Shown here: positions 5,176 to 26,794 of the stretch, piece after piece | How positions within the stretch are numbered: the first letter of the stretch is position 1 | Layout of the letters: each line of letters starts with the position of its first letter | The notes under the pieces: model-generated | Databases searched by the model: none | What the model saw: only the letters and a program-made list of their open reading frames with translations | What the model was told of the DNA's origin: nothing | Made by a program: the position numbers and the translations under genes | NCBI RefSeq assembly: GCF_000384335.2 | Contig: NZ_KQ031382.1 | Span: forward strand, 1,736,001-1,800,000 | Direction: 5' to 3' | DNA: 64,000 nucleotides | Source of the DNA: Hyphomicrobium sp. 99 | GTDB lineage: Bacteria; Pseudomonadota; Alphaproteobacteria; Rhizobiales; Hyphomicrobiaceae

Positions 5176-5641
5176 CGCATGGAGGCGGAAAGAAATTGAG
5201 ATCGGCAGCGCCAACATGGCGATGGGCCGCGCGATATCCAGGAAGACCTAATGGGCCATAAGCGGCTGTATGGCGAAGGGACGACGCTTGCTCACCAGCA
5301 GCACTGGCTGCAACGCATCGCGTTCATGCCACCGATATCGATCTAACACGTTGAGGTCTGATTCCGTCTGCTGCTGGCCCAAAGCGGAACTCCGAACTCG
5401 ATCTGACTGGTTATCGGCGATGACTATCCCCAGAGATGGCGGACATATCATGCCCTAACACCGGGACTCGGGTCTCCGGCCACCCTCGCGTCAGCTGGCG
5501 GGTCCGGACACGCGCCGGCCGGAGCAGCATCGGCATTGCCGCTCCGCCGACCCTTGGAAGCTTGATGAACCCCCTCAGCAAATCCGAAATGCGCGGCCGC
5601 GCGAAGCGTGTATGGGGATTTGGAATCGAGGGAGCTCTGAA
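5176..5641. repeat. intergenic region with degenerate dispersed repeat
   Basis: No gene is supported in these 466 bases. Between about 5350 and 5400 there is a segment reading TCTGCTGCTGGCCCAAAGCG, close to the short dispersed element that is frequently mistranslated as MSALGQ-type peptides in Bradyrhizobium-like genomes. Related degenerate pieces occur at 21.3-21.6 kb and 27.9 kb. The element marks the left side of the accessory region. Recognition is by eye and the copies are decayed. Confidence 0.45.
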
Positions 5642-6082
5642 ATGCGGTATCTGCACACAATGGTCCGGGTGACGGACCTCGAAGAGGCAATGGGCTTCTA
5701 CTGCGGCAAGCTGGGGTTGGTGGAGGTGCGGCGGCGCGAAAGTGAGACGGGGCGATTCACGCTCGTCTATTTGGCCGCGCCCAAGGACCTGACCGACGCG
5801 AAGGCCTCCAACGCGCCGATCCTCGAACTCACCTACAACTGGGATCGCGAGGAATATGGTGGCGGCCGCAATTTCGGGCACCTAGCCTTTGAGGTCGACG
5901 ATATCTACGCCTTCTGCACGAAGCTTGCGGATGGAGGCATCGTCATCAACCGGCCGCCGCGCGACGGCTACATGGCTTTCGTCCGCTCGCCCGAGGGAAT
6001 ATCCATCGAGCTTTTGCAGAAGGGCGAGAAACTTCCGCCGGCCGAGCCGTGGATCTCGATGCCGAACATCGGAAGCTGGTAA
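5642..6082 (+). CDS. VOC-family glyoxalase I-like protein
   Basis: This 146-residue protein belongs to the vicinal-oxygen-chelate family and looks like lactoylglutathione lyase (GloA). Two beta-alpha-beta-beta-beta units are visible, and the four expected metal ligands can be placed: His in RYLHTMVRV, Glu in LELTYNW, His in FGHLAFEV and Glu in GISIELLQ. Glyoxalase I turns the methylglyoxal-glutathione hemithioacetal into S-lactoylglutathione. The length fits single-domain GloA. It stands first in front of a Rieske-oxygenase operon but is separated from it by about 280 bases, so it may detoxify reactive aldehydes from that pathway or be independent. The ATG at 5642 matches the family N-terminus; an in-frame ATG ten codons upstream is less likely. 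Confidence 0.85.
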
Positions 6083-6365: not shown

Positions 6366-7559
6366 ATGAGATCGATAATGATCGAGAAGAGCAGCTCCGC
6401 CGCAATCAAATGTCCGATTCCGCTGCATGAATTCGACAAATCCGACGGCATCAAAGGTCCGGCTCATGCGTTGCCGGGCGCCTGCTTCACCTCGAGCGAA
6501 TTCTACGATTTCGAATTCAAGGCGGTCTGGGAGAAGGAGTGGTTCTGCATCGGCCGCGCCACGGACATTCCCAATAGCGGCGACTACTTCACGATCACTG
6601 TGGGCAAGGAGCCGCTGTTTGCCATTCGCGATGGTGCGGGCAACGTCAATGTGCTGACCAACGTGTGCCAGCATCGTGCCATGCTGCTTCTCGACGGGCA
6701 CGGCAACACGAAGCGCATCCGCTGCCCGTTGCACTCATGGGTCTACAGCCTGGATGGCAATCTGCTTTCCGCGCCGGCGCTCAACGATGTCGACGACTTC
6801 GACAAGGGCGCCGTGTGTCTGCCGCGCATCCGCAGCGAAATCTGGGAAGGCTTCATCTTTATCACCTTCGATGAGAGCCTGGCCCCCGTCGGCGAGCGCC
6901 TTGCGCATCTCTCCGGGCAGTTGGCGAACTTCCGTATGTCGGAACTCTCCGCCGCTACGCCGTTGGAGATGATTCCCTATGACTGGGATTGGAAGATCTA
7001 CGGCGACGAGTGCTACCACTGTACGCATCTGCATAGCGGCACCTGGTGCAACTTTTATCCGACGCCGGAAGACTGCATCGACGAGGACACCCACCTTTCC
7101 GATCCGGAACGCGGCATCATCGCCTATCAGCTGAAGAGCGAAGTGCTCGACCCCGCGCCGACGCGCACCGGCAAGATCCTGCATCCGCTGCTGCCTGATC
7201 TCACAAAGCTGGAGCGCTCTGGCCTGCAGTACGTCACGGTTATGCCGAACCTGCTGATCGTGACACAGTCGGACAAGGTGAAGTACTTCCTGTGGCTGCC
7301 ACGCGGCCCGGAGCAATCCTATTTCGGTGTCTCCTGGCTATTCCCGAAGTCGACCCTGGAGGGGCCGAATTTCGCCGAAACAGCCGCCATGGAGAAGAAC
7401 GACCTCGGGCCGGTGATGGAGGAAGACCTCTATGCTTGGAGCCGCAGCCAGGCAGGCTTGCGCTCGCGCTTCGCGCCGCGCGGACGTCTGTCGCCGAAGG
7501 AGAAGGTGATCGCCCAGTTCTACGGCTGGCTGATCGACCGCTACCGCGCCGCGTCGTGA
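6366..7559 (+). CDS. Rieske non-heme iron oxygenase, alpha subunit (quaternary-amine type)
   Basis: This is the catalytic subunit (397 residues) of a two-component Rieske oxygenase. The Rieske cluster ligands are Cys101-x-His103 and Cys120-x2-His123. The mononuclear iron ligands are His218 and His223 in the segment GDECYHCTHLH, with a later acidic residue (EEDLYAW) as the likely third ligand. Glu215 lies three residues before the first His, where naphthalene dioxygenase has the electron-bridging Asp205; carnitine monooxygenase CntA also uses Glu here. With the adjacent reductase and betaine-type ABC importer, this points to the GbcA/CntA/stachydrine group, which oxidises N-methylated zwitterions. 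The exact substrate is not readable. The ATG at 6366 gives the normal family length. The preceding 6083-6365 stretch holds no other gene. Confidence 0.85.
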   Translation: MRSIMIEKSSSAAIKCPIPLHEFDKSDGIKGPAHALPGACFTSSEFYDFEFKAVWEKEWFCIGRATDIPNSGDYFTITVGKEPLFAIRDGAGNVNVLTNVCQHRAMLLLDGHGNTKRIRCPLHSWVYSLDGNLLSAPALNDVDDFDKGAVCLPRIRSEIWEGFIFITFDESLAPVGERLAHLSGQLANFRMSELSAATPLEMIPYDWDWKIYGDECYHCTHLHSGTWCNFYPTPEDCIDEDTHLSDPERGIIAYQLKSEVLDPAPTRTGKILHPLLPDLTKLERSGLQYVTVMPNLLIVTQSDKVKYFLWLPRGPEQSYFGVSWLFPKSTLEGPNFAETAAMEKNDLGPVMEEDLYAWSRSQAGLRSRFAPRGRLSPKEKVIAQFYGWLIDRYRAAS

Positions 7560-7572
7560 GCGGAGTGCGTCG

Positions 7573-8568
7573 ATGAACCAGATGAGCCCGATCGAAAAGG
7601 CCGCAGGCGAGAAGCCGGCCGCGATTTCGCTAGTCCTTGAGGTAACCGGACGCCGTTCGGTTGGCGAAGGAATTGAAGAGTTCACATTTGCAAGCGCCGA
7701 CGGCGCGCCATTGCCAGCTTGGCAACCGGGCGCGCATGTCGAGTTCCTTCTTCCGCTAGCGGGCAGGACGGAAGGGCGGAGTTATTCCCTGCTCGGCAAT
7801 TACTCTGATCGCCAGCACTGGCGCATCGCCGTGCAGCTGCAGCCGGAAGGGCAGGGCGGCTCGGTGTGGATGCACAAAAACGCAGTGCTCGGCGCAATGG
7901 TGCCCGCGATCGGCCCACGCCAAGCCTTCACTTTCTTGAAAGCCGAGCGTTATCTCTTCATCGCAGGCGGCATTGGCATCACGCCGCTTCTGCCGATGAT
8001 TGCGGCCGTCTCGGCGCGCGGCAAATCGTGGGAGCTGGTCTATCTGGCGCGCAGCGAATCCCGCTTCGTCTATGCTGAGCAGCTGCGTGCCTATCCGGGC
8101 GGAAAGGTCCAGTTCTACGCGTCCGCTGAGCCCAATTTCGATCTGGCGGCAAAGCTCGAATCGCTGCTCGCCGGTACAGCCGTGCAAGCCTGCGGGCCGG
8201 CGCCGATGCTGGACGCTCTCGAAAAGCTGGCTGCGACTGCAAATGGGAGTTGGAGCCTTTCGATTGAGCGTTTCACCCCGCCCGAACTCGGCAATGGCGA
8301 GCGCACCTTCGAGCTGAAGCTGGCGCGCAGCAACAAAGTGCTGATGGTATCGGCCAACCGCTCGATCCTTGAGGTGCTGCGCGCGGAGGGCATCAAGATC
8401 GACTCGACGTGCCGCTCGGGCTCATGCGGCACGTGCGAGTGCGGCGTGCTCGAAGGCCGCATCGATCACCGCGACCAAGTGCTGACGCCGGCAGAGCGCG
8501 AGCGAGGCAACACCATGATGGTTTGCGTTTCCCGCGCCGCCGGCGATCGTCTCGTGCTCGATATCTAG
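7573..8568 (+). CDS. flavin/2Fe-2S oxidoreductase partner of the Rieske oxygenase
   Basis: This 331-residue protein carries electrons from NAD(P)H to the oxygenase encoded 13 bases upstream. Domain order is flavin binding (RSYSL motif), nucleotide binding (GGIGITPLLPMI) and a C-terminal plant-type ferredoxin domain. The 2Fe-2S ligands are Cys280, Cys285, Cys288 and Cys318. This arrangement is that of phthalate dioxygenase reductase, VanB and CntB, in which the ferredoxin lies at the C-terminus. All cofactor motifs are intact. Pairing with the Rieske alpha subunit is certain from position; the preference for FMN or FAD is not decided here. Confidence 0.9.
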   Translation: MNQMSPIEKAAGEKPAAISLVLEVTGRRSVGEGIEEFTFASADGAPLPAWQPGAHVEFLLPLAGRTEGRSYSLLGNYSDRQHWRIAVQLQPEGQGGSVWMHKNAVLGAMVPAIGPRQAFTFLKAERYLFIAGGIGITPLLPMIAAVSARGKSWELVYLARSESRFVYAEQLRAYPGGKVQFYASAEPNFDLAAKLESLLAGTAVQACGPAPMLDALEKLAATANGSWSLSIERFTPPELGNGERTFELKLARSNKVLMVSANRSILEVLRAEGIKIDSTCRSGSCGTCECGVLEGRIDHRDQVLTPAERERGNTMMVCVSRAAGDRLVLDI

Positions 8569-8584
8569 GGGGAGTGCTTTCTCA

Positions 8585-9454
8585 ATGATCAGAAAAGTGG
8601 TGGTGACAGGAGGATCCGGCCGAGTGGGGCGCTACGTCGTGCGCGAGCTGGCCAAGTCCTATGACGTGATCAACGCCGATCTTGTTGCCGACGACAGCGG
8701 CGTGCAGCATGAAACTGTGGACGTGATGGATCTCGATGCGCTGCGGCGTGTCTGCAAGGGCGCCGATGCGCTGGTGCATCTGGCCGCGATCGACTTCGAC
8801 TGGAAGGCGGCGCCTGAGAAATATATCCGCGTTAACACGCTCGGCACTTGGCATGCGCTGCAGGCGGCGAGCGAGAACAATCTGTCAAAGGTTGTGCTGT
8901 GCTCCAGCATCTCGGCCTGCGGCCTTTCCGAAATGCGGCCCGAGTGGCGTCCGCATTATCTCCAGGTGAATGAGCGGCACGAGAATCGCCCTGTGCAGGC
9001 CTATAGCGTCAGCAAGCTGCTGATGGAGAAGATGGCGCTGAGCTTCGCGCAGGGAACGTCGATGAGCGTGCTGTCGCTGCGGCCGCTCGCGGTGGTGCTG
9101 CAGGAAACCTTCGCTCAGTATGTCGAGTTCGTCGAGGCACCCGATCGCAATTGGCTCTTCTATTACGTGACAGCCGAGGATGTCGCCCGCGCCTTTGCCG
9201 CCGCGTTGGTCTCTAATGTGCGGCAGGGCGAGTTCTTCCTGAGCGCAGCCGATACTTCGCGTCCCGAGCCGACGCTGGAGTGGTATGCCGACCGTTTCGG
9301 CGCGCTGCCCGAAATTCCCAATCCGCGCATCTTCGAACAGAACCCGCGCGCGTCGATCTTCTCGAGCGCGAAGGCACGCGACTATCTCGGCTGGGAACCC
9401 TCTTCCAACTATCTCGAAATGCGCAAGACTTTGACCAAGGAACAGACAGTATGA
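8585..9454 (+). CDS. NAD-dependent epimerase/dehydratase (extended SDR)
   Basis: This 289-residue protein is an extended short-chain dehydrogenase. The Rossmann motif GGSGRVGRYVV lies at residues 9-19, the acidic cofactor-binding region DLVADD follows the second strand, and the catalytic YSVSK (Tyr-x3-Lys) lies near residue 140. LHL-type substrate residues are not evident, so reduction, epimerisation or lactone formation are all possible. The stop codon overlaps the start of the next gene by four bases (ATGA), which indicates translational coupling inside the Rieske operon. It probably acts on an oxidised intermediate of the same pathway. Confidence 0.85.
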   Translation: MIRKVVVTGGSGRVGRYVVRELAKSYDVINADLVADDSGVQHETVDVMDLDALRRVCKGADALVHLAAIDFDWKAAPEKYIRVNTLGTWHALQAASENNLSKVVLCSSISACGLSEMRPEWRPHYLQVNERHENRPVQAYSVSKLLMEKMALSFAQGTSMSVLSLRPLAVVLQETFAQYVEFVEAPDRNWLFYYVTAEDVARAFAAALVSNVRQGEFFLSAADTSRPEPTLEWYADRFGALPEIPNPRIFEQNPRASIFSSAKARDYLGWEPSSNYLEMRKTLTKEQTV

Positions 9455-10062
9455 CCAATGGTGTTCGCGCGGGCGTTGTTGATTGGACCGGTGACAATCC
9501 ATTTGTCTATCTGAAGACGGACCCGTCAGGTGACTGGTCGAGCCTGTCTCTGTTCTTCCGCGTCGTCTTCTCCGACAAGGGGCGTGGCAACGTCATCCTC
9601 GTGCTCGAAAACCCCTACGATCCGGAGCGCGAAGGCCGCCGCGTGTGTCTGACCGATAATGTGCCGCTGGCGCACGACTTGATTGAGCGTTTCGTCAAGC
9701 GCTTCGGCCTGTTCCGCCCCGCGCATGCGGCGTTGGCCAAGATGGAGATCATCGGCGACGCGACCTTCAGTGTCAGCCACAGCTATCCGGGTTTTGCCAC
9801 CGAGTACGCCGAGACCGCCGACGGCCGCAGCGCAAGCCTGACCTGGCGCGACCTGCAGACACCGTTTGCCGCCGACGTACCCGCCAACCAGACCCAAACG
9901 CTCGAGCACGTCATGCTGAGCATCTTCCAGCCGGCGTCTTCCGCCGAGGTGCGGGTTAACGGCGAGGTTCTGCCCGGTAGTACGGTGGAGCGCGACTTCT
10001 TCGGAGGCCGGGCGCAGTCGGCTGCATTGGCGCACAGCGAAACCTGGATCAAGGCTGAGTAG
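9451..10062 (+). CDS. hypothetical protein in the Rieske operon
   Basis: I do not recognise this 203-residue protein. It is soluble, has no signal peptide or membrane segment, and starts at an ATG that overlaps the preceding stop by four bases. Its own stop is directly followed by the ATG of the DUF1116 gene. Aromatic and acidic residues are frequent in the N-terminal half (GDWSSLSLFFRVVF), and the pattern of alternating hydrophobic residues suggests a mainly beta fold. A segment near residue 110 (FSVSHSYPG) and one near 175 (VERDFFGG) stand out. Its tight placement between a dehydrogenase and an AllG-like protein implies a role in the same pathway. Confidence 0.75.
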   Translation: MTNGVRAGVVDWTGDNPFVYLKTDPSGDWSSLSLFFRVVFSDKGRGNVILVLENPYDPEREGRRVCLTDNVPLAHDLIERFVKRFGLFRPAHAALAKMEIIGDATFSVSHSYPGFATEYAETADGRSASLTWRDLQTPFAADVPANQTQTLEHVMLSIFQPASSAEVRVNGEVLPGSTVERDFFGGRAQSAALAHSETWIKAE

Positions 10063-11250
10063 ATGCACGGACAGCTCAACGACACCGGTCCGGCAACGGC
10101 CACTGCAAATGACGAGGCATTGAGGCGCGTCATCGCCACGCGTCCGCGCTGGGACGGCGTCGTGAAGATCGGCGACGTCGCTCCTCAGAAAAGCCCCTGC
10201 CTGTTCCATGCGGGCCCGGCGTACGACTCGGCCGAAGTCATTCCCGCGCCGGTGCGCAATTCGCTGGCGTTCGGCTGCCTGTATGAAGGCTGGGCAAAAA
10301 GCTGGGACGAGGCGGAAGCGCTGATCGCGGCCGGCGCGGTCGCGGTCGAACCGGCACAGGACCATGGCCTTCTCGTGCCGCTTGCAGGTGTGGCGTCACC
10401 GTCCATGGCAGCGGTCCGGATCAGCGATCCGGCCAGCGGTCGCGCACGCTATTGCGTGCTCAACGAAGGCGCCGATATCGCCACCCGCTTAGGACGGCGG
10501 GACGAGCGCCTAATGGATCAACACCGCTGGCTGAACGGCGAGCTTGCCGACTGGCTGACCGGTTGCCTGGCCGAACCGCTGGATGTGCTTCCGCTGATGC
10601 TCGAGTCCTTCAGTCATGGCGACGACGGCCACGCCCAAACCAGCGCTGGCTCCGGGCTCATCGCCAGCGCGTTGCGGCGGCGAGCCTTCGACACGCCGGG
10701 CCGCGTTTCGGAGTTTCTCAACGGGGCGGCCGCCTTCGCGTTGAACATATGGATGGCGTCGATTGCGCTTAAATCCAGCGCGGCGGAGGGAGTGGAGGGC
10801 TCGTCACTGGTGTCGCGCGCTGGCGGCAACGGCGTAACGTTCGGCTACGTGCTGGCCGGAGAGCCAGGCCGCTGGAAAATTTCGGACGCACTCAAGCCTG
10901 TCGGCACCGTCGATCCGCGCTTTGCCGGCAGCGGACCGACTGGCGCGCTTGGCGACAGCGCCGTGATCGACTTCTTCGGACTCGGCGGCATGAATCTTGC
11001 GACGGCGCCGGTCTTGGCAGCGAACCTGGCTGCTTATCTGCCCGACGACGCACTCCAGCGGGGTGCTGCCATCCTCGGCGGCAAGCATCCGGGGCTCGGT
11101 GGGCGCCTGGTCGGATGTCTGGCCGACCGAGCAGCAAAAGCTGGCAAGGGACCGATCATTCTACTTGGCATGATCGACGAGCGCGGCGAAGCGGGCCGGC
11201 TTGGCGGCGGCGTAGTGGATGTGCCGGGCTGCGTGTTTCAGACAACTTAG
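10063..11250 (+). CDS. DUF1116 / AllG-like protein
   Basis: This 395-residue protein matches the DUF1116 family, which includes YlbE/AllG, a component of the E. coli oxamate carbamoyltransferase. The recognisable pieces are the LNEG segment near residue 135, the GDDGHAQTSAGSG stretch near residue 190 (family pattern G-D-E-x-H-x-R-T-x-A-G), and GDSAVIDFFGLGGM near residue 305. The partner families AllF/FdrA and AllH (DUF2877) are absent from the window, so this is a lone AllG homologue within an oxidative operon. Its function here is therefore open. It begins directly at the stop of the preceding gene. The family call rests on remembered motifs. Confidence 0.8.
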   Translation: MHGQLNDTGPATATANDEALRRVIATRPRWDGVVKIGDVAPQKSPCLFHAGPAYDSAEVIPAPVRNSLAFGCLYEGWAKSWDEAEALIAAGAVAVEPAQDHGLLVPLAGVASPSMAAVRISDPASGRARYCVLNEGADIATRLGRRDERLMDQHRWLNGELADWLTGCLAEPLDVLPLMLESFSHGDDGHAQTSAGSGLIASALRRRAFDTPGRVSEFLNGAAAFALNIWMASIALKSSAAEGVEGSSLVSRAGGNGVTFGYVLAGEPGRWKISDALKPVGTVDPRFAGSGPTGALGDSAVIDFFGLGGMNLATAPVLAANLAAYLPDDALQRGAAILGGKHPGLGGRLVGCLADRAAKAGKGPIILLGMIDERGEAGRLGGGVVDVPGCVFQTT

Positions 11251-11275
11251 CCCATGTGGTGGGTGCTTTTTTTTT
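11251..11275 (+). terminator. weak terminator-like CCCA...TGGG plus T-run
   Basis: A short stem (CCCA/TGGG) just after the DUF1116 stop is followed by nine consecutive T. The stem is only four base pairs, so it would be a weak terminator or an attenuator that lowers expression of the downstream LysR gene. It could also be chance. Confidence 0.35.
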
Positions 11276-11306
11276 AAGCACGGAACCACTGGGAGGAGCC
11301 GGATCT

Positions 11307-12242
11307 TTGCGCTTCACACTCAAGCAACTTGAATACTTCCTGGCGGCTGCGGACGCCGGCAGCATCACCATTGCAGCGGCGCGAGCCCGGATATCGCAGC
11401 CTTCGATTTCGGCGGCCATCTCGTCGCTGGAAGCCGAGTTCGGCGTGAATCTATTCGTCCGCAATCCGGCGCAGGGCATCATCCTGACGGTTGCCGGTCA
11501 ACGGCTGATGCGCGAGGTGCGGGACATCATCAACCGCATGGGCGGATTATACGTCGTTGCCAACGAGCTGAGCTCGGTGGTGCAGGGGCCGCTGTCGATC
11601 GGATGCTTGGTGACCGTCGCCCCGGTGATCCTGCCCAGCCTTCTGGAGCCTTTCCGTTCTGCGCATCCGGCGGTTCAGCTCGCGTTCGCTGATCTCGACC
11701 AGGCGGAGATCATCCGGCGCCTTCGGCTGGCCCAGATCGATGTCGCGCTGACCTACGACATGCAGCTGCCCAAGGACATCCGCTTCACCACGCTGGCGAA
11801 CCTGCGGCCGCATGTGGTGGTGGCGCGCGATCATCCGCTTGCGCAGCACGAGGAGGTGCAGATCAGCGAGCTCGCGGAGTTCTCCTACATCATGCTCGAC
11901 CTGCCACTCAGCCGCGAATATTTCCTCTCGGTCTTCGAGCAAGGTGGGGTGTCGCCCAACATCACCCAAGTCACGAAGAGTCCGGAGGTCGTGCGTTCGC
12001 TGGTGGCCAATGGCTATGGCGCGACCATACAGACGATGCTGCCGCGCTGTGAAATCGCGCTGGACGGCCACCCGCTGGTCAGCATTCCGCTAACCGGCAA
12101 CATCTCACCCCTCGCGCTCGGCATGGCCACGCTCGAGCAGGGCGCGAGCACCGCGTCGGTGCGAACCTTCGAACAATACTGCGTGGACCGTTTCAAAGGG
12201 GGCGTTCCCGGCATGCGGACCCCCTGTGATGGCGGCGCTTAA
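11307..12242 (+). CDS. LysR-family transcriptional regulator
   Basis: This 311-residue protein has an N-terminal winged helix (residues 1-60, LKQLEYFLAAADAGSITIAA and ISQPSISAAISSLE) and a C-terminal type-2 periplasmic-binding-like effector domain. I take the TTG at 11307 as the start because a strong GGAGGAG lies eight bases upstream and the family usually begins two or three residues before the LKQLEYF helix. It lies inside the catabolic gene run on the same strand and is the likely activator of that operon, responding to its substrate or an intermediate. The effector-binding residues cannot be matched to a known ligand. Confidence 0.88.
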   Translation: MRFTLKQLEYFLAAADAGSITIAAARARISQPSISAAISSLEAEFGVNLFVRNPAQGIILTVAGQRLMREVRDIINRMGGLYVVANELSSVVQGPLSIGCLVTVAPVILPSLLEPFRSAHPAVQLAFADLDQAEIIRRLRLAQIDVALTYDMQLPKDIRFTTLANLRPHVVVARDHPLAQHEEVQISELAEFSYIMLDLPLSREYFLSVFEQGGVSPNITQVTKSPEVVRSLVANGYGATIQTMLPRCEIALDGHPLVSIPLTGNISPLALGMATLEQGASTASVRTFEQYCVDRFKGGVPGMRTPCDGGA

Positions 12243-12248
12243 ATTCTG

Positions 12249-13523
12249 ATGCAGGAGGGGGAACTGGATATCGCTGCTGAGCAAACGTCCGGACGCGAGC
12301 ACATCGAACGCTGCCTCGCACGGATCGAGACTTTCGAACCCGAACTGCGTGCTTTCGTCGTGCGGGACGCCGAAGTGGCTCTTACTGAGGCTGCCGAGGT
12401 CAACGCGCGGGCAGACGCATCGCCGTTGGCTGGACTCGCGCTCGGGGTCAAGGACATCATAGATGCAACGCCCTATCCCACGGGGTGCGGTTCGCCGATC
12501 CATGCCGGAACCATGCCGGTACGCGACGCAGCGGCGGTGGCCCAGCTTCGTGCAGCCGGCGCGGTGGTGATGGGCAAGACGGTGACGACTGAATTCGCTT
12601 TCTTCTCGCCGGGGCCGACGCGCAACCCGTATGACGGCGCGCGCACACCCGGCGGCTCGTCGAGCGGCTCGGCAGCGGCAGTGGCCGTGGGCTTAATCGA
12701 TGCCGGGCTCGGCTCGCAGACCGCCGCTTCAATTACGCGGCCGGCTTCCTTCTGCGGCGTCGTCGGCTTCAAGCCGAGTTACGGCACCTACAGCCTCGCC
12801 GGTGTCAAAGGTCTTGCGCCGTCCTTCGACACGCTGGGAGCGTTGAGCCGCGACGTCGCCACCATGGCGGCGGTGCACTCGGTTCTGGCCAATCCTATAC
12901 CGGCGCTCCCGGTTACTGATCCTGCCACGCCCCGTCGTGTCGGCGTCTGCCGTACGCAATGGTGGAATAAGGCCGAGCAGGCTACGCGCGACGCAATCGC
13001 CGGTGCCGCGGCGGCATTCGCGACGGAGACCGAAGTCGAAGACGTGGACATGGCGAGCTTCGAGGATGCTGCTGATTTGCATGCGAGCATCATGGCATTC
13101 GAAGCGGCGCAGACGCTTGCCTGCGAGCTGGCCTCGGAACCTGACAGGCTGAGTCCCGTGCTGCGCGGCATGCTCGAAACCGGCACGCGCATCGGACGCG
13201 CCGAGCATGTGCGCAATCTGCGACGCGCCGAGGAGCTGCGGGCGCGTGTCCGGGATCTGACCGAACGTTATGACGTGTTGCTTGCTCCGGCTGCAGTGGG
13301 CGAGGCTCCGCTCGGTCTCGGCGCCACCGGGGATCCAATCTTCAGCCGCGCCTGGACGCTGCTACGGCTGCCGGCGATCACCTTGCCGGGATTTGTCGGG
13401 CCCGCCGGTTTGCCAGTCGGCGTGCAGCTGATCTCCGGCCTTCATGACGACGAACGCCTGCTCGCGCACGCCCTGTGGGCTGAGCGACTGCTGCCCCGGC
13501 TCGCGCCGCCTTCTCACTACTGA
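12249..13523 (+). CDS. amidase-signature hydrolase
   Basis: This 424-residue enzyme belongs to the amidase-signature family and hydrolyses a carboxamide. The catalytic lysine is Lys68 in LGVKDI, the cis-serine lies in GGSSSGS (residues 135-141), and the nucleophile is Ser161 in the segment GSQTAASITRP. Most relatives have T-G-G-S at the last motif; here it is T-A-A-S, which may affect the oxyanion loop but keeps the nucleophile. The gene starts seven bases after the LysR stop. It may cleave an amide-linked substrate imported by the nearby betaine-type ABC transporter, or one formed in the pathway. The substrate is unknown. Confidence 0.87.
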   Translation: MQEGELDIAAEQTSGREHIERCLARIETFEPELRAFVVRDAEVALTEAAEVNARADASPLAGLALGVKDIIDATPYPTGCGSPIHAGTMPVRDAAAVAQLRAAGAVVMGKTVTTEFAFFSPGPTRNPYDGARTPGGSSSGSAAAVAVGLIDAGLGSQTAASITRPASFCGVVGFKPSYGTYSLAGVKGLAPSFDTLGALSRDVATMAAVHSVLANPIPALPVTDPATPRRVGVCRTQWWNKAEQATRDAIAGAAAAFATETEVEDVDMASFEDAADLHASIMAFEAAQTLACELASEPDRLSPVLRGMLETGTRIGRAEHVRNLRRAEELRARVRDLTERYDVLLAPAAVGEAPLGLGATGDPIFSRAWTLLRLPAITLPGFVGPAGLPVGVQLISGLHDDERLLAHALWAERLLPRLAPPSHY

Positions 13524-13581
13524 TCTGCGTGACGGGCCCTCGGACACGCACACCGAATTCAGCGACCATTGAGGAATGCAT

Positions 13582-15072
13582 ATGACCAGTTACGCTAAGC
13601 ACGATTGGGTTGCGCTCGCACAAAAGATCTCGCCCCGGACCGAGGCATTCATCAACGGTAAGTTCCAGCCGTCGGCGAGCGGGCGGACGTTCGACAGCAT
13701 CAACCCGGCAACGGGACAGGTGCTCGGGCAGGTCGCGGCTTGTGGCGCCGAGGATGTCGACCGCGCGGTAGCGTCCGCCCGGACTGCTTTTGAGTCCGGC
13801 GTGTGGTCGCGCGCTGCACCGTCCGAACGCAAAGCCGTGCTGCTGCGGCTGGCCGACCTTTTGCGCACGCATCTCGATGAGCTGGCTCTGCTGGAAAGCC
13901 TCGACATGGGTAAGCTGGTGGTAGACGCCAGAACCTATGACGTGCCGGGTTCGGCAGATCTGTTCCAATGGTACGGCGAGGCCGTCGACAAGATCTACGA
14001 CGAGGTTGCGCCGACCGATCCGGGAAATCTGGCACTGGTGCGCCGGCAACCGCTTGGCGTGATTGGCGCGGTTGTGCCGTGGAATTACCCACTCAACATC
14101 GCGACCTGGAAATGCGGACCCGCGCTCGCCGCTGGCAACAGCGTGGTGCTGAAGCCCGCCGAACAGTCGCCTCTGACAGCGCTGCGCCTGGCCGAACTTG
14201 CCATGGAGGCCGGCCTGCCCGCGGGTGTTCTCAACGTCGTTCCGGGCACTGGACCGGAGACGGGCAGGGCGCTCGGACTTCACATGGACGTCGACTGCTT
14301 GGCCTTCACCGGTTCGACGGCCGTGGGCAAGGCCTTCCTCGGCTATGCGGCGCAGTCGAACATGAAGCAGGTCTGGCTCGAATGCGGCGGCAAGTCGCCC
14401 AATCTGGTGTTCGAGGACGTGGAAGATATCGATACCGCGGCGGAGATGGCGGCGTTCGGCATCTTCTTCAACCAGGGCGAAATCTGCTCGGCAAATTCGC
14501 GGCTGTTGGTGCAGAACTCCATCAAGGACGAGTTCATCGAGAAGCTCAAGGAGAAGGCGGCGGGCTTCCGACCCGGTAACCCGCTAGACCCGGACTCCAC
14601 CATGGGCGCAATCGTCGATGCCCGTCACACAGCGCGCATCGAGGGCGCCATCAAGGCGGCACGCGAGACCTCGCGTCTGGTGCTAGGTGGCGAGCGCATG
14701 ACCATCGATGGCGGCGACTGCTTCATCGAACCGACCATCTTCGTCGACGTCGACCCGAAGGACCCGCTGTCGCGTGACGAGATTTTCGGACCAGTGCTGG
14801 CGGTGACAGGCTTCGACGACGAAGCCGAAGCCGTGACGCTGGCCAACGATACAATCTACGGCTTGGCCGCTTCGGTGTGGACCAGCAAGATCTCGCGCGC
14901 TCACCGCGTGGCGGAGGCGCTCAAGGTGGGCACTGTCTCGGTCAACACCGTCGACGCGTTCAGCGCGCAGACTCCGTTCGGCGGGGTCAAGCAGTCGGGC
15001 ATGGGCCGGGACCTGTCGTTGCACGCGCTCGACAAATACACCGCGCTGAAGACGACCTGGATCAAGTTTTGA
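13582..15072 (+). CDS. aldehyde dehydrogenase (betaine-aldehyde/PuuC type)
   Basis: This 496-residue NAD(P)-dependent aldehyde dehydrogenase has the catalytic Cys302 in the NQGEICSAN segment, the general-base Glu in WLECGGKSPN, and the FTGSTAVG cofactor motif. The family resembles BetB and gamma-glutamyl-aminobutyraldehyde dehydrogenase PuuC. I choose the ATG at 13582 because GAGGA lies six bases upstream; the ATG at 13576 would leave no spacing. In context it probably oxidises the aldehyde made by the GMC oxidoreductase encoded downstream, as BetA and BetB do for choline. The substrate is not proven. Confidence 0.88.
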   Translation: MTSYAKHDWVALAQKISPRTEAFINGKFQPSASGRTFDSINPATGQVLGQVAACGAEDVDRAVASARTAFESGVWSRAAPSERKAVLLRLADLLRTHLDELALLESLDMGKLVVDARTYDVPGSADLFQWYGEAVDKIYDEVAPTDPGNLALVRRQPLGVIGAVVPWNYPLNIATWKCGPALAAGNSVVLKPAEQSPLTALRLAELAMEAGLPAGVLNVVPGTGPETGRALGLHMDVDCLAFTGSTAVGKAFLGYAAQSNMKQVWLECGGKSPNLVFEDVEDIDTAAEMAAFGIFFNQGEICSANSRLLVQNSIKDEFIEKLKEKAAGFRPGNPLDPDSTMGAIVDARHTARIEGAIKAARETSRLVLGGERMTIDGGDCFIEPTIFVDVDPKDPLSRDEIFGPVLAVTGFDDEAEAVTLANDTIYGLAASVWTSKISRAHRVAEALKVGTVSVNTVDAFSAQTPFGGVKQSGMGRDLSLHALDKYTALKTTWIKF

Positions 15073-15334
15073 TCGCAAATCGTTGCGCGCGGGCGATCAA
15101 ATCGAGGCGAAATTCATCTGCTCAATGGCGATGTCAAACTGAGGAGGCTTCTCAGGGATTCATATTTGACCGTTGATCTGGATCAATACTGAATGAGCGT
15201 GCTGAAGGTGGGCGCTCATCAGGATAAAAAAATAGAGCAGCGCGAAGCGATTGCTCGTGACCTACGCTCGGGGGATGTCTGTCCAAAACTACAAGAACCG
15301 CACGGCTTCTTTTTCAAAGGTGAAACAAAGAACG

Positions 15335-16285
15335 ATGCAGAATCCTCTCAAGTCGACGTTCACCCGTCGCACATTCTCGCTTGTCGCCGGCGCAATGGCC
15401 GGCGCCTTCATGCTTTCGTCGAGTGCCCTGGCGTTCACGCCGGAATCTTCGGATCCGATCAAGGTCGCTCAGCACGATTGGGCGGGTAGCGAGTTTAGCA
15501 CGGCGCTGTTGGTGCGGTTGCTGAAGGAAGCGGGTTACAATGCCGAGCCCGTGACCATCGATGCGAGCTCTGTCTATACGGCGCTCGAGAATGGTGATGT
15601 CACTTTCCAGCCGGAGTCCTGGACCACGAGTCACCCGGAATTGCCGCCGCTGCTTAAGGCCGCCAAGATGACCAATGTCGGCGAAATCGGCCTTCTAGGC
15701 ATGGATCGCTACTGGTATCCCGACTACGTCAAGGAACAGTGCCCTGGCCTGCCTGACTACAAGGCGCTGAAAGACTGTGCGAAGCTTTTCGCTACGCCCG
15801 AAACTGGCGGCAAGGGCCGCCTGCTGGCATTTCCCGAGGACTGGGGCGGGTTCGACGAGCAGCGTCTCGCCAGTCTAGGCTTGAACTTCGAGGTCGTGCA
15901 CGCCGGTTCGGAAGCCGCGCTACTGGCGGAAGTGAAGTCGGCCGTCCAGCGCAAGGTTCCCATCCTTGCGTGGCTCTATGAACCACATTGGGCTCCCTTC
16001 GTCTTCAAGGGCGAATATGTGGAGCTGCCGCCTTATTCCGACGAATGCTTCGCAAACAAGAGCTACGCTTGTGAGAAGCCGAAGGGTCCGATCCTGAAGC
16101 TGGCCTGGAACGGCGCCAAGGAAAAGTGGCCGCACGCCTACAAGATCTTCGAGGCAGTCAAGCTCGACAACAAAGAATATGCCGAGGCGCTGATAGACAT
16201 CAGCCTCAACGGCAAGAGCGTGCCTCAAGCCGTCGATACCTGGATGCAGAAGAACAAGGACCGTTGGACCGCCTGGCTCCAATAA
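15335..16285 (+). CDS. glycine betaine/proline betaine-type ABC substrate-binding protein
   Basis: This 316-residue protein is an OpuAC/ProX-type solute receptor. A signal peptide covers about residues 1-32 with an RRTF stretch that could be read by the Tat system, ending after ALA. The mature part begins with the typical KVAQHDWAGSEF segment, and tryptophans in PESWTTSHPE and EPHWAPF are candidates for the aromatic box that holds a quaternary ammonium group. Fused permease and ATPase genes follow. The ATG at 15335 fits the signal peptide. The 262 bases before it contain no other gene and probably a promoter. The ligand could be betaine, carnitine, choline or a related compound. Confidence 0.88.
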   Translation: MQNPLKSTFTRRTFSLVAGAMAGAFMLSSSALAFTPESSDPIKVAQHDWAGSEFSTALLVRLLKEAGYNAEPVTIDASSVYTALENGDVTFQPESWTTSHPELPPLLKAAKMTNVGEIGLLGMDRYWYPDYVKEQCPGLPDYKALKDCAKLFATPETGGKGRLLAFPEDWGGFDEQRLASLGLNFEVVHAGSEAALLAEVKSAVQRKVPILAWLYEPHWAPFVFKGEYVELPPYSDECFANKSYACEKPKGPILKLAWNGAKEKWPHAYKIFEAVKLDNKEYAEALIDISLNGKSVPQAVDTWMQKNKDRWTAWLQ

Positions 16286-16295
16286 GCGACGAAGA

Positions 16296-18308
16296 GTGCG
16301 GGTGGTGACATTGACCTATCAGCTTTCGATCTCACCACCCGTCCCTGCACCTGCGCGCGCATACAAGGCGCGGCAGGTTGGAATAGTCGCAAGCCTTCTG
16401 GTGATCGCCGCTATCTACATGCTGGCGCCATTCCTGCCGGCTTGGCTCGTGGCGTGGCCGCGCGAATACATCTTGCCGGCCGCGAAATACCTGAGCTCCG
16501 GACTGAAGTGGATTTCAGAGAGCCACATCGTCGGCGACGTGGCGCTCAAGGATTTAACCCGCTCGCTTTCGGCCGTCATCGAATGGCCGACCAAGATCAT
16601 CCAGGTCGTCCTGGTCGATGGCATCTACAAGGGCTTCGGCTCCCAGCAGGTTACCATCGTGCCGCCGTTGTCATGGCTCGGGCTTTCGGTGGCCGCCGTG
16701 TTGCTCGGCTGGCGGCTGGCCGGTGCACGCCTCGCTTTTCTAACCGCGTTCAGCGCATGCTATCTGCTCGGCTTCGGCCTCTGGCGCAGCGCTATGCAGA
16801 CCATATCGCTTCTCACCATTGCGGTGCCAATTGGTGCCGGACTTGGGCTTTGGCTCGGCATCATGCTGTGGCGCCGCCCGAAGATTCAGACACCGGCACT
16901 GCTGGCCTTCGACCAGCTGCAGACCATGCCGATCTTCGCCTATTTGGTGCCGCTTATTGTCTTCTTCGGACTCGGCTATTCCCCCGCCATCCTGGCAACC
17001 GTCATCTTCGCCGTGCCGACGATGATCCGTACCACGGTGGCGGGCCTCAACCTTGCGCAAAATTCGATTGGCGAACTCGCCCACTCGGTTGGCTGCAACC
17101 GGCGGCAGGAGCTGTGGACGATCCTCATTCCGACAGCGCAGGCCGAACTGCGCGTGGGCATCAATCAGATCGTGATGCTGTCGTTTTCCTGCACCGTGCT
17201 GGCCTCGATGGTGGGAACCAACGGGTTGGGCTACGACATTTTAGTTGCCCTTAGGCAGCTCAATATCGGCCGCGGCCTCGAGGCAGGCCTGGGCATCACG
17301 CTGATGGCGATCCTGCTCGACCGGTTTTTCCAGAGCTCGGTCAAACGCGCTAGCGGCCGCCGCATCGCGCTGCGGAATTTCCTGATCATCATCGGCGCGG
17401 TGCTACTGGTGCCGACGGCCGCGTCGCTGTTCGTGCCGCAGCTGGCCGTATTCCCGGCCGAATGGAATGTATCGACGGGCTCCTTTGCCGACAACATCGT
17501 GGAATGGACCAACGTCAATCTGTTCTGGCTGATGGACGGCATCAAGAACGGGCTACTGATCCATGTACTGATCCCGGTCAAGACCTTCATGGTTGGCATT
17601 CCATGGATCGTGGGCGTGCTGTTCGTTTCGCTGCTTGGCTATCTCATCGGCGGGTGGAGGCGGGCGCTGCTCGTGGGCTCGCTGATGCTCGCGATCGCGG
17701 CGGTTGGCCTGTGGCAGGTGACCATGCTGACGATCTACCTCTGCTCCGTCGCGGTGGTCACGGCTTCCCTGTTCGGCATTCCGCTCGGCATCCTTGCCGG
17801 CCGTAGCCGCACCGCCGCCGGCATCATCATGCCTATCGTCGATACGCTGCAGACGCTGCCAGCCTTCGTCTACCTCATCCCAGTGATCATGTTCTTCGGT
17901 GCCGGCGAATTCCCTGCGTTCGTAGCCATCACCGCCTATGCGATCTGCCCGGCTATTCGCTTCACCGAACTCGGCATCCGCGGAGTTCCGGAGTCGCTCA
18001 AGGAAGCGGGCACGCAGCTCGGCATGACCTCGCTGCAGCGGTTGTTCAAGATCGAGCTGCCAACGGCAGCGCCACAAGTGCTGCTGGGTTTGAACGGCAC
18101 CATCGTCATGGCGCTGGCCATGCTGGTGGTCACCGCGCTCATCGGCACCAAGGACCTGGGCCGCGAGACGCTGAGCGCGCTGGCCAAGGTCGACCCCGGT
18201 CAGGGCCTCACAGGAGGCCTGGCGATCGCATGCCTGGCCGTGATCGCCAATCGCCTTGTGGGCGGGCTCGCCGAAATCCGCCTCGCCGCCCAGACACCCC
18301 GTTCCTAA
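16296..18308 (+). CDS. fused double ABC permease, ProW type
   Basis: This 670-residue inner-membrane protein is two ProW-like permeases joined head to tail. Each half carries six or more membrane segments and an ATPase-coupling loop: GCNRRQELWTILIPTAQAE near residue 270 and GMTSLQRLFKIELPTAAPQ near residue 580. Most betaine importers use a homodimer of one permease of about 280-350 residues, so the fusion allows the two halves to differ. The GTG start at 16296 lies ten bases after the receptor gene; internal GTG/TTG codons a few residues later are possible alternatives. It forms the channel of the importer with the receptor upstream and the ATPase at 19.9-21.0 kb. Confidence 0.87.
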   Translation: MRVVTLTYQLSISPPVPAPARAYKARQVGIVASLLVIAAIYMLAPFLPAWLVAWPREYILPAAKYLSSGLKWISESHIVGDVALKDLTRSLSAVIEWPTKIIQVVLVDGIYKGFGSQQVTIVPPLSWLGLSVAAVLLGWRLAGARLAFLTAFSACYLLGFGLWRSAMQTISLLTIAVPIGAGLGLWLGIMLWRRPKIQTPALLAFDQLQTMPIFAYLVPLIVFFGLGYSPAILATVIFAVPTMIRTTVAGLNLAQNSIGELAHSVGCNRRQELWTILIPTAQAELRVGINQIVMLSFSCTVLASMVGTNGLGYDILVALRQLNIGRGLEAGLGITLMAILLDRFFQSSVKRASGRRIALRNFLIIIGAVLLVPTAASLFVPQLAVFPAEWNVSTGSFADNIVEWTNVNLFWLMDGIKNGLLIHVLIPVKTFMVGIPWIVGVLFVSLLGYLIGGWRRALLVGSLMLAIAAVGLWQVTMLTIYLCSVAVVTASLFGIPLGILAGRSRTAAGIIMPIVDTLQTLPAFVYLIPVIMFFGAGEFPAFVAITAYAICPAIRFTELGIRGVPESLKEAGTQLGMTSLQRLFKIELPTAAPQVLLGLNGTIVMALAMLVVTALIGTKDLGRETLSALAKVDPGQGLTGGLAIACLAVIANRLVGGLAEIRLAAQTPRS

Positions 18309-18329
18309 TCGTGATGGAATAGAGAATAC

Positions 18330-19928
18330 ATGACCTATCAATACATCATCGTCGGTGCCGGTTCGGCCGGCTGCGTGTTGGCGGAGCGTCTCAGCGCCGA
18401 TCCGAAAAACCGGGTCCTACTGCTTGAGGCCGGTAACTGGGACCGCAAGCCGCTCATCCACATTCCGGCCGCGCTGCCGGCAGTGGCCCCGAACCTGAAG
18501 TTGAACTGGGGCTATTACACCGAGCCGGAGCCGCATCTTCACAACCGCTCGCTGTTCTGGCCACGCGGCAAGACGATCGGCGGGTCGAGTTCGATCAACG
18601 GTATGGTCTATACGCGCGGCAATGCCGGCGACTACGACCGCTGGGCCAATCTGGGTGCCGAGGGCTGGTCTCACCGGGAGGTGTTGCCCTACTTCAAGCG
18701 TGTCGAGGCCAATGAGCGGGGAGCCGGCCAGCATCATGGCGCGGACGGCCTGCTGCGGGTCACACGCGCGCGCCGTACGTCTGCATTGTGCGACATGTTC
18801 GTGGATGCCGGAAAGCAGGCCGGCTATAAGCTCAGCGACGATTTCAACGGCGAGGACCAGGAAGGCTTCGGCGATTTCGATGCAACCGTCTATCGCGGGC
18901 GGCGCTGGAGCACGGCGACTGCCTTCCTGCGGCGCGCGCGGGCACGTCGCAACCTTACCGTCATCACCGGTGCGCTGGCTTCGCGCGTTCTATGGAAAGG
19001 CTCGCGGGCGGTCGGCGTGGAGTATCGTCGCCGCAACAAGATCGAACAGGCGCATTGCGAAGGCGAGGTCATCCTGTCGGGCGGGACGATCAACTCTCCG
19101 CAACTGCTGCAGCTTTCGGGCGTCGGCCCAGCCGACCATCTGCGCAAACTAGGTATTCCGGTGGTGGCCGACCGCGCGCAGGTGGGAGAGAACCTGCAGG
19201 ACCATCTGTGCGTCTGCCTGATGTCGCGGATCACCAAGCCAATCAGCCACTATCGCTGGCTGCATCCGGTTCGCGGCACGGCCGTGGCATTGCAATATGC
19301 AGCGACCCGGACCGGGCTCGCCGCGCAGGCGCCGCTGTCAACGGGGGCGTTCCTGAAGAGCAGTCCCGAGCTTCAATATCCCGACCTGCAATTGCATCTG
19401 ACACCAGCGCTGGTTACCAGCCACGACAGCTCGTGGCCGAATGAGCACGGCCTGACCATCTACATCAATCACGGCTATCCGGCGAGCCGCGGCTCAGTGC
19501 GGGCGGCAAGCAGCGATGCCGGTATGCATCCGCGCATTTTCGCCAACTATCTCTCTGCACCCGGGGACCTGCCGATGCTGCGGCAGGGCGTGAAGATGAC
19601 TATGGACGTTTTGGCGCAAAATGCCTTCGACGGGGTGCGCGGCACGGCGCTGACGCTGCGTCATGGTCCGGTTTCGGACGCTGAGATCGACGAGTTCATC
19701 CGCGCTCAGGCAGAGACCGTCTACCACCCCGTCGGCACCTGCCGCATGGGCAAGGACGACGACGCCGTCGTCGATCCTCAGCTGAAAGTGAACGGGGTCG
19801 AGGGCCTGCGCGTGGCCGACGCCTCGGTGATGCCCGCGCTGATCAACGGCAACACCAACGCCCCAACGATCATGATCGCGGATCGCGCCAGTGACATCAT
19901 TCTTGGGATTGGCGAATACAGCAGATGA
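18330..19928 (+). CDS. GMC-family FAD oxidoreductase (choline dehydrogenase-like)
   Basis: This 532-residue flavoprotein belongs to the glucose-methanol-choline family. The FAD-binding motif YIIVGAGSAGCVLAERL is at the N-terminus, GMC signature 1 (RGKTIGGSSSINGMVY) at about residues 85-100, signature 2 (SGGTINSPQLLQLSG) near 250, and the catalytic His in YHPVGTCRMG near 468. It oxidises an alcohol to an aldehyde, and the aldehyde dehydrogenase at 13.6 kb is its probable partner. It sits between the permease and the ATPase genes of the importer, which ties it to the imported substrate. Choline is one candidate; other hydroxylated amines cannot be excluded. Confidence 0.88.
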   Translation: MTYQYIIVGAGSAGCVLAERLSADPKNRVLLLEAGNWDRKPLIHIPAALPAVAPNLKLNWGYYTEPEPHLHNRSLFWPRGKTIGGSSSINGMVYTRGNAGDYDRWANLGAEGWSHREVLPYFKRVEANERGAGQHHGADGLLRVTRARRTSALCDMFVDAGKQAGYKLSDDFNGEDQEGFGDFDATVYRGRRWSTATAFLRRARARRNLTVITGALASRVLWKGSRAVGVEYRRRNKIEQAHCEGEVILSGGTINSPQLLQLSGVGPADHLRKLGIPVVADRAQVGENLQDHLCVCLMSRITKPISHYRWLHPVRGTAVALQYAATRTGLAAQAPLSTGAFLKSSPELQYPDLQLHLTPALVTSHDSSWPNEHGLTIYINHGYPASRGSVRAASSDAGMHPRIFANYLSAPGDLPMLRQGVKMTMDVLAQNAFDGVRGTALTLRHGPVSDAEIDEFIRAQAETVYHPVGTCRMGKDDDAVVDPQLKVNGVEGLRVADASVMPALINGNTNAPTIMIADRASDIILGIGEYSR

Positions 19929-19932
19929 CCGC

Positions 19933-20982
19933 ATGAACAAGACCCAGACGAAACCGAAGCTATTGGTCCGTGGCCTATGGAAGATTTACGGCCCGGGTGC
20001 CGATTCCATCTTCGCGGGGAGGGAAACGCCACCGACGGACGAGGAGCTTCTCAAGCACAATCTGTTCGGTGCCGTCCGCGGCGCGTCCTTCGAGATCTGG
20101 CCGGGCGAGCTGATCACGGTGATGGGCCTGTCGGGCAGCGGCAAGTCGACTCTCGTGCGGACGGTCAGTCGTCTGATCGAGCCCACCTATGGCCAAGTGT
20201 GGATCGACGACGAGGACCTGCTGGCCGCCTCGCCCAAGCGCCTGATCGAGCTGCGCCGCCACCGTATGGGTATGGTGTTCCAGAACTACGCTCTGCTTCC
20301 GCACCGCACGGTGCTGGAGAATGTGGCGCTGCCCCTGGAGGTGCGCGGCGAAAGCAAGGCCAAGCGGGAGGAACGGGCGCGGCAGATGGTGGAGCTCGTG
20401 GGTCTCAAGGACCGCATCGAGCATTTCCCGACGCAGCTTTCCGGCGGCCAGCAGCAGCGTGTCGGCATAGCCCGCTCGCTTGCTGTCGACCCCGACATCT
20501 GGTTCCTCGACGAGCCTTTCTCGGCGCTCGATCCATTGATCCGCCACGAGCTGCAGGAGGAGCTGCTGCGGCTGCAGAAGATCGTCAAGAAGACGATCCT
20601 GTTCATCACGCATGACTTCGACGAGGCGATACGGCTGGCCAATCGCATAGTCATCATGGAAGGCGGCCGTATCGTCCAGATCGGCACGCCCGAGGACATC
20701 GTGCTCAATCCCAAGGATGATTACATCGCGAACTTCACCAAGAATGTGCGGCGCGCCAACGTCATCTCCATCGGGTCGCTGGCGAAGCCGATCGGTGACG
20801 TGACGGGCATCGGCACGACCGTGCCCGCGACGGCCAGGGTAATCGATGTGGCCGAGAAGGTGCTCGCGGCGCTCGGCCCGGTCGGCGTTGTGGACGCCAC
20901 TGGAGCAGTGATCGGCGCAGTGACGCGCGAGGTTGTGATCGCCGTGCTGCTCGAACGGCCGGCCGGCGCTACAGCGGCCTGA
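19933..20982 (+). CDS. ABC transporter ATPase, ProV/OpuAA type
   Basis: This 349-residue ATPase powers the betaine-type importer. Walker A is GLSGSGKST, the signature is LSGGQQQRVG, and Walker B with the catalytic Glu is WFLDEPF. A C-terminal part (about residues 275-345) resembles a single CBS-like regulatory region, shorter than the paired CBS domains of OpuAA that sense ionic strength. The ATG at 19933 lies four bases after the GMC stop. The ATPase is the last gene of the run, separated from the permease by the GMC gene, an uncommon order. Confidence 0.9.
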   Translation: MNKTQTKPKLLVRGLWKIYGPGADSIFAGRETPPTDEELLKHNLFGAVRGASFEIWPGELITVMGLSGSGKSTLVRTVSRLIEPTYGQVWIDDEDLLAASPKRLIELRRHRMGMVFQNYALLPHRTVLENVALPLEVRGESKAKREERARQMVELVGLKDRIEHFPTQLSGGQQQRVGIARSLAVDPDIWFLDEPFSALDPLIRHELQEELLRLQKIVKKTILFITHDFDEAIRLANRIVIMEGGRIVQIGTPEDIVLNPKDDYIANFTKNVRRANVISIGSLAKPIGDVTGIGTTVPATARVIDVAEKVLAALGPVGVVDATGAVIGAVTREVVIAVLLERPAGATAA

Positions 20983-22481: not shown

Positions 22482-22526
22482 AGTGCTCACTTGAATGTCG
22501 TTTGCGGGACGTCGTCGGTGTGACCT

Positions 22527-23465: not shown

Positions 23466-23510
23466 TACGGCCTCCTGGACGTGACACTTCGAAAGATTTG
23501 ACGTCCAAGC

Positions 23511-26747: not shown

Positions 26748-26771
26748 AGTCTGGCGATATGTCCGACCGTA

Positions 26772-26787: not shown

Positions 26788-26794
26788 GAATTCC

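Follow-up and report, generated by a model that had tools for sequence, protein, structure and literature searches.

A conserved Rieske oxygenase–AllG–amidase core in a probable catabolic operon of Hyphomicrobium sp. 99

Gene content of the locus

The window analysed here is a 64,000-nucleotide stretch of the Hyphomicrobium sp. 99 genome (contig NZ_KQ031382.1, positions 1,736,001 to 1,800,000), and its subject is a run of 13 genes, all on the + strand, that extends from 5612 to 20982 and is probably a catabolic operon. A preliminary description had singled out 6366–20982, in which 12 of the 13 genes lie, as an uncharacterised catabolic pathway for a quaternary-ammonium or zwitterionic compound. 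All of the genes that it listed are present, open and on the + strand, as judged from Pfam and NCBIfam profile matches, and the AllG-like protein and the DUF1116 protein that it treated as two items proved to be one gene (PF06545, 10063–11250). The features of the run, with the short names used below, are as follows:

5612..6082, + strand: VOC, glyoxalase I-like protein (PF00903), 156 amino acids as listed, a later start being possible
6366..7559, + strand: RSK, Rieske oxygenase alpha subunit of the CntA/GbcA kind (PF00355 and PF00848, over cut-off)
7573..8568, + strand: RED, FNR/[2Fe-2S] reductase partner (PF00175, PF00111), 13 bp after RSK
8585..9454, + strand: EPI, extended short-chain dehydrogenase/epimerase-like protein (SDR; PF01370, E 1.8e-24)
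9451..10062, + strand: UNK, 203 amino acids, no described family, predicted beta-barrel
10063..11250, + strand: AllG (DUF1116) family protein (PF06545, 150.6 bits, cut-off 27)
11307..12242, + strand: LysR-type regulator (PF00126, PF03466), its TTG start inferred from an upstream GGAGG
12249..13523, + strand: AMI, amidase-signature hydrolase (PF01425, E 6.4e-75)
13576..15072, + strand: aldehyde dehydrogenase, PuuC/BetB-like and below both cut-offs (PF00171)
15251..16285, + strand: OpuAC-type substrate-binding protein, start uncertain (PF04069)
16296..18308, + strand: fused double permease of the ProW/ChoW kind, one 670-amino-acid protein (TIGR03416, 371.4 bits, cut-off 363)
18330..19928, + strand: GMC oxidoreductase (PF00732/PF05199)
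19933..20982, + strand: ATPase of an ATP-binding cassette (ABC) importer, ProV kind (TIGR01186, 332.6 bits, cut-off 326.6)

The genes from RSK to AllG are tightly packed, with the 13-bp gap between RSK and RED followed by a gap of 16 bp, a 4-bp overlap and then no gap at all. Promoter and terminator scans of the region gave no excess over shuffled sequence; a terminator-like hairpin does lie 3′ of AllG, but such hits were rarer than in the shuffles.

RSK carries both domains of a Rieske non-haem iron oxygenase, and the Rieske ligands CxH...CxxH and the metal-site motif DECYHC..LH are present in 32 of 32 aligned RSK sequences, that of the window included. The glutamate that precedes Tyr-His in this motif we take to be a mark of the quaternary-ammonium type, as in CntA. 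The best PDB relatives of RSK are carnitine monooxygenases (6y8j, E 2.8e-27), and its best NCBIfam model is GbcA. RSK and RED thus resemble CntAB/GbcAB in forming a two-component Rieske oxygenase and reductase and in the glutamate ahead of Tyr-His, but they score far below the cut-offs for GbcA (125.1 bits, where 670 are required) and GbcB (61.5, where 500 are required), and they sit in a longer set together with an SDR, AllG, UNK and an amidase. Indeed, no enzyme of the run reaches the NCBIfam equivalog cut-off for a betaine or choline enzyme.

At E 1e-3, UNK matches nothing in Pfam or NCBIfam. Distant relatives at 26–30% identity were seen at four further loci (L082–L085), where no AllG or RSK relative was found in the 20-kb stretches and one (L085) holds an amidase relative at 33%, so the 203-amino-acid family is wider than the operon. 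As for its neighbour, AllG is a subunit of the oxamic transcarbamylase AllFGH of E. coli, as a passage of PMC11326118 has it, and the protein of the window belongs to the same subunit family (PF06545), whereas its gene partners differ and AllH was found in none of 29 genomes (25 of the window type, Hyphomicrobium sp. 99 among them, and 4 of a sister type introduced below), an E. coli control being positive and AllF (FdrA) not having been searched for. The lack of AllH in the 29 genomes led us to reject an enzyme like the E. coli oxamic transcarbamylase. Fold searches with AllG returned nothing beyond 3clq, which is itself uncharacterised.

Conservation and acquisition of the core

An alignment of 28 AllG sequences, including that of the window, was used as the query in one scan of a species genome collection, which gave 64 loci; two more, L066 (a Paracoccus aminovorans plasmid) and L079 (genome G092), brought the number to 66, the window excluded. 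Window proteins were then sought anywhere in each locus by blastp at a minimum identity of 45% for RSK and EPI, 40% for UNK, 33% for RED and AMI and 30% for VOC. As the 64 loci were reached through AllG, cores that lack AllG would be missed. UNK is present at 35 of the 66 loci, and it is accompanied there by RSK in 32, RED in 30, EPI in 34, AMI in 34 and VOC in 24. The order RSK-RED-EPI-UNK-AllG-AMI is kept exactly in 24 of the 35, and EPI-UNK-AllG in 34. The core is therefore not a chance assembly and is a conserved unit. Among the 31 AllG loci without UNK, by the same thresholds, neither RSK nor EPI was found at any, although two of these are imperfect controls (L034 is of the sister type and L041 is a cut-off contig). 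RSK is missing from three UNK loci, of which L019 is a contig of 4.6 kb, L028 holds a GbcA-like Rieske protein of another kind (27% identity) and L022 gave no blast match. The core occurs in both proteobacteria and actinobacteria, and genera represented among the 64 loci of the scan include Amphritea, Marinobacter, Oceanimonas, Alcaligenes, Advenella, Paracoccus, Arthrobacter and Mycobacterium.

Several lines of evidence suggest that the block arrived from elsewhere. Of 397 genomes of the order, 7 gave a match to UNK, namely Hyphomicrobium sp. 99 itself, one genome with a window-type core (G092), two of the sister type (G039 and G145) and three with distant matches (E 1e-16 to 1e-19); of 398 genomes drawn from the phylum, 2 gave one, again Hyphomicrobium sp. 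99 and one distant relative. None of six other genomes of the same genus has UNK, and blast alignments to two same-genus genomes, at 71–76% DNA identity, end at 5042 and 5112, with no match over the next 13–14 kb. The G+C content is 0.62–0.64 inside the island, 0.56 just upstream, 0.57 just downstream and 0.61 from 34 kb on. From the absence of UNK in the six relatives and the end of synteny at the island edge (about 5112), the block looks horizontally acquired.

This edge bears also on where the unit begins. The VOC product scores 100.5 bits against the glyoxalase I equivalog TIGR00068, below the cut-off of 120, and so falls short of a lactoylglutathione lyase assignment. A second VOC copy, 67% identical, lies elsewhere in the genome (G000:C3:2654040), VOC copies at 62–70% occur in 7 of 10 same-genus genomes, and homologues at 68–75% stand within the equivalent operon at five Rhodobacterales loci (L012, L016, L020, L023 and L066). 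Given the second genomic copy, these five operons and the synteny stop at 5042/5112, the unit probably starts at 5612 with the VOC gene. The copy in the window probably belongs to the island and, given the single in-frame TGA in the hit to the other copy, may also act as the ordinary glyoxalase of the genome.

Two plasmid stretches with RSK relatives were seen apart from these loci. A Mesorhizobium sp. AR02 plasmid (L115, 14001–15836) carries a 73%-identical Rieske protein in two annotated pieces, followed by a short reductase open reading frame and a Tn3 transposase, and looks like a decayed copy of the start of the core. A Kozakia baliensis plasmid (L116, 4569–14821) carries a 36.6% RSK relative, clustered with a flavin oxidoreductase, a reductase, a TauD-type dioxygenase (a second lies further up), a hydrolase of the isochorismatase family and a member of the acetamidase/formamidase family; this set has the look of another, undescribed cluster.

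Transport, the oxidase pair and the sister core

The importer of the window passes the cut-offs for the ProV subfamily ATPase and the ChoXWV permease and is accordingly classed as a betaine/choline ABC importer, though the choline-specific ChoXWV scores are not reached by either the ATPase (304.1 of 483.75) or the binding protein (41.6 of 379.05). The best PDB relative of the binding protein is 4xz6 (198.7 bits), which we take to be the trimethylamine N-oxide-binding protein TmoX. Elsewhere, the core travels with a TRAP transporter at 12 loci (11 and L079), and with a ProP-like MFS protein, polyamine- or opine-like ABC systems or an NCS1 permease at others, of which representatives only were classified. 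The one TRAP receptor tested, that of L002, has 2pfy as its first PDB match and 2pfz, not far behind, as its third, presumably Bordetella DctP7 and DctP6. Together, the importer type, the likeness to 4xz6, the variety of transporters and the TRAP receptor point to a small zwitterion, perhaps a ring with a carboxylate next to the nitrogen. Bordetella DctP7 and DctP6 bind pyroglutamate, a cyclic N-C-COOH compound, according to a passage of PMC13274462. The quaternary-ammonium or zwitterionic substrate of the preliminary description is thus plausible on indirect grounds: the carnitine-monooxygenase-like RSK and the betaine/choline-type importer favour it, whereas the transporters found elsewhere fit a small zwitterion and not specifically a quaternary amine.

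The GMC oxidase and the aldehyde dehydrogenase resemble, together with the importer, the BetA/BetB enzymes accompanied by ProV/W/X or ChoXWV, but both are below the equivalog cut-offs. The GMC protein reaches 588.7 of 732.1 for betA, passing the broader choline dehydrogenase subfamily NF002550 (668.5 of 605), and the aldehyde dehydrogenase reaches 630.3 of 850 for PuuC and 490.1 of 668.6 for BetB (betaine aldehyde dehydrogenase). The GMC protein moreover falls in a tight clade of its own, apart from other choline-dehydrogenase-like proteins, with 24 relatives at 68–90% and the next at 53% among 120 matches listed. In 29 genomes searched at E 1e-120, the only close GMC besides that of Hyphomicrobium sp. 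99 is in Amphritea atlantica (71%), other listed matches being at 48% or less; it adjoins the core there (L005), along with an NCS1 permease and an aldehyde dehydrogenase (56%). Four clade members (P0243, P0252, P0256 and P0260) come from assemblies whose longest contig equals in size that of AllG/UNK hits (P0002, P0083, P0156 and P0145), which suggests that they share contigs, and no such match was seen by eye among the 95 listed GMC rows below 68%. In light of the A. atlantica neighbourhood and these four apparent cases, conversion of an alcohol to an acid seems linked with the core in certain lineages.

A related but distinct sister core was found at six alphaproteobacterial loci (L068 of Ruegeria conchae, L034, L080, L081, L106 and L107). 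Its AllG and AMI proteins are 33–40% and 37–44% identical to those of the window, and its Rieske protein differs from RSK, with four sequences at 71–76% to that of L068 and the L080 protein at 74%. A tandem pair of UNK-like genes is present at four of the six loci, at 35–38% to the window in L068, L080 and L081, while in L034 one is at 34% and the other too divergent to count; L106 and L107 have none. An aldehyde dehydrogenase adjoins the sister core at five of six loci (it was not seen in L034), as do N-methylglutamate- or sarcosine-oxidase-like genes at five. Its neighbours in L106 are a glutamine synthetase of type III (666.5 bits against a cut-off of 469.6), a 446-amino-acid protein resembling glutamate synthase (GltB-like) and a protein with an amidotransferase domain, an arrangement that we take to be that of N-methylglutamate synthase loci, and the end of a type III glutamine synthetase (83%) lies at the contig edge in L107. 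A SoxBDAG-like four-subunit set, resembling sarcosine oxidase, stands at three of the six sister loci (L034, L068 and L080) as against none of 35 window-type loci, although all four subunits in L068 are below the sarcosine oxidase cut-offs. Across 385 genomes of the class, sister AllG matched 37 at E 1e-3, of which only two were near 1e-153, and the sister Rieske matched 26 at E 1e-60, two of them near 1e-295; both searches found the sister core in G937 and G1020 and in no genome smaller than 1.9 Mb. Seven stretches around other AllG matches (L108–L114) contain AllG without RSK, EPI or UNK.

Other genes beside the sister core may be recorded here. Where UNK genes are missing, in L106, there are a weakly formamidase (FmdA)-like protein (6993–8330) and a PcaD-like hydrolase (13948–14745), which possibly replace UNK. 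In L068 (2908–6267), and also in L081, an HisC-like aminotransferase, a two-part protein resembling thiamine-diphosphate (TPP) decarboxylases and a DoeB-like deacylase adjoin the core, which hints at an amino-acid precursor.

Further along the window, 21813–27860 holds a class I glutamine amidotransferase, a nitrilase-like hydrolase and a glutamine-synthetase-like ligase, none of which reaches an NCBIfam cut-off, with an amino-acid permease-like open reading frame and a probable RpiR-type regulator named by reading only; the block resembles a gamma-glutamyl-amine or nitrile pathway. On the minus strand, 28565–32980 holds, all named by reading only, an aldehyde dehydrogenase, a zinc alcohol dehydrogenase and a large FAD-linked oxidase resembling 4-cresol dehydrogenase or vanillyl-alcohol oxidase.

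Proposed pathway and competing readings

Our preferred interpretation, which we consider probable, is that the run is a horizontally acquired catabolic operon in which a small zwitterionic or cationic nitrogen compound, perhaps a cyclic one, is oxidised and an amide is hydrolysed at the end. The reactions, their order, the cyclic N-C-COOH substrate and the roles of UNK and AllG are what we infer from the sequences. The compound would be taken up by the betaine/choline-type ABC importer and, if it enters as an alcohol, the GMC oxidase and aldehyde dehydrogenase would convert it to a carboxylate for the core, by analogy with the conversion of choline to betaine. RSK and RED would hydroxylate the carbon adjacent to the nitrogen (N-dealkylation or a ring carbon), EPI would oxidise or rearrange the hydroxylated product, and the UNK barrel protein and the AllG-type protein would open or rearrange this product to an N-acyl (amide or oxamate-like) intermediate, from which the amidase AMI would release an amine and an acid. 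More tentatively, and at less than even chances, UNK and AllG may together make up a so far undescribed pair of enzymes, which would convert an oxidised N-heterocycle, by ring opening or rearrangement, to the N-acyl intermediate for the amidase; this module would be joined, in various bacteria, to at least three different Rieske oxygenases that attack different cyclic zwitterions.

The description as an uncharacterised pathway stands up well, given the conserved multi-enzyme core and the failure of any enzyme to reach a betaine/choline equivalog cut-off. Searches of CC0, CC BY and CC BY-SA literature in PMC for DUF1116 together with Rieske, DUF1116 alone, homarine, and Rieske/amidase ring cleavage, mostly judged by their listings, returned no description of the operon. 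Riboflavin catabolism uses a Rieske enzyme, and PMC12746152, which concerns it, mentions neither AllG nor DUF1116. The stronger claim of a new system is uncertain, because the sister operon may be a homarine operon published in 2026.

Several observations weigh against the interpretation that we prefer. The Foldseek matches of UNK are weak (the best, E 6.3e-3, to another protein, and acetoacetate decarboxylase at 8.7e-3); the transporters vary between lineages, so that no single substrate class is proved; and a close GMC stands beside the core at one of 35 loci (L005), with none in view at the other 34 and a distant one (39%) at L035. Two further counts belong here: a type III glutamine synthetase over cut-off occurs in 6 of 25 window-type genomes as against 4 of 5 sister-type genomes or records (the L066 plasmid record has none), and SoxD occurs anywhere in the genome in 15 of 25 as against 6 of 6. 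Because of the single close GMC, it may be that the oxidase forms, with the aldehyde dehydrogenase, a choline-like module of its own. A minority prospect on the same footing as the homarine alternative below is that the run is two unrelated neighbours, a core at 5612–13523 for one compound and a choline/betaine uptake-and-oxidation module at 13576–20982 for another. The different or unseen transporters at other core loci and the hairpin after AllG fit such a division, but the sole close GMC in the other 28 genomes adjoins the core in A. atlantica, with its aldehyde dehydrogenase beside it. Simple demethylation of betaine, carnitine or stachydrine by a GbcA/CntA-type enzyme would account for the resemblance of RSK to CntA/GbcA, but is very improbable, since, of the 35 loci with UNK and AllG, 32 also have the Rieske, 34 the SDR and 34 the amidase. 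To our knowledge, these demethylation routes need no SDR, AllG, UNK or amidase. A GbcAB/CntAB assignment was accordingly rejected on the low GbcA/GbcB scores and the near-constant presence of the other four proteins. Breakdown of imidazoleacetate or methylhistidine is suggested by the HisC-like, TPP-decarboxylase-like, aldehyde dehydrogenase and DoeB-like genes of L068 and L081; it finds no support within the window, and nothing related was among the 20 papers listed of 232 that a literature search matched.

The remaining alternative is that homarine (N-methylpicolinate), or an N-methylpyridinium acid close to it, is what the core degrades, and that the core is a version of a homarine catabolism (hom) operon, which Ferrer-Gonzalez et al. 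are said to have reported in 2026 (Nature Microbiology 11:1531, as cited in PMC13390433), in which case it would be known or nearly so; we regard this as a minority prospect, though one to be taken seriously. The pyroglutamate-type TRAP receptor suits a 2-carboxylated nitrogen ring, and the sister operon adjoins the glutamine synthetase, GltB-like and amidotransferase genes or SoxBDAG-like genes. The 2026 operon reportedly occurs in SAR116 and SAR11, and two of the sister-core genomes we take to be SAR116; the lack of any sister-core genome below 1.9 Mb, set against the reportedly smaller SAR11 genomes, makes it slightly less likely that the sister core is that operon. A passage of PMC13390433, a paper of 2026, states that homarine catabolism involves N-methylglutamate dehydrogenase, and because of the N-methylglutamate-type genes that adjoin it the sister core may represent the homarine operon. 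The core of the window differs from the sister core in having another Rieske and an SDR and in the absence of Sox-type genes at all 35 window-type loci. With the synthetase in so few window-type genomes and SoxD missing from 10 of 25, the core of the window does not depend on N-methylglutamate chemistry, which weakens a simple homarine reading. In the Hyphomicrobium sp. 99 genome there are three genes for type III glutamine synthetase and two for SoxD, none of which lies in the window. We infer that the amine product of the window core is ammonia, or is demethylated first by RSK. Homarine or a near relative of it is the likely substrate of the sister core, and a related cyclic zwitterion that of the window core.

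Overall, the oxidation of a small nitrogen compound followed by amide hydrolysis, as proposed here, would tie the UNK family and the AllH-less AllG proteins to a defined catabolic setting, where their functions could be put to a direct test. Should the substrate prove to be an abundant, osmolyte-like compound, for example homarine, trigonelline or a betaine of the proline type, the operon would add a route of dissolved organic nitrogen turnover common to widely separated bacteria.

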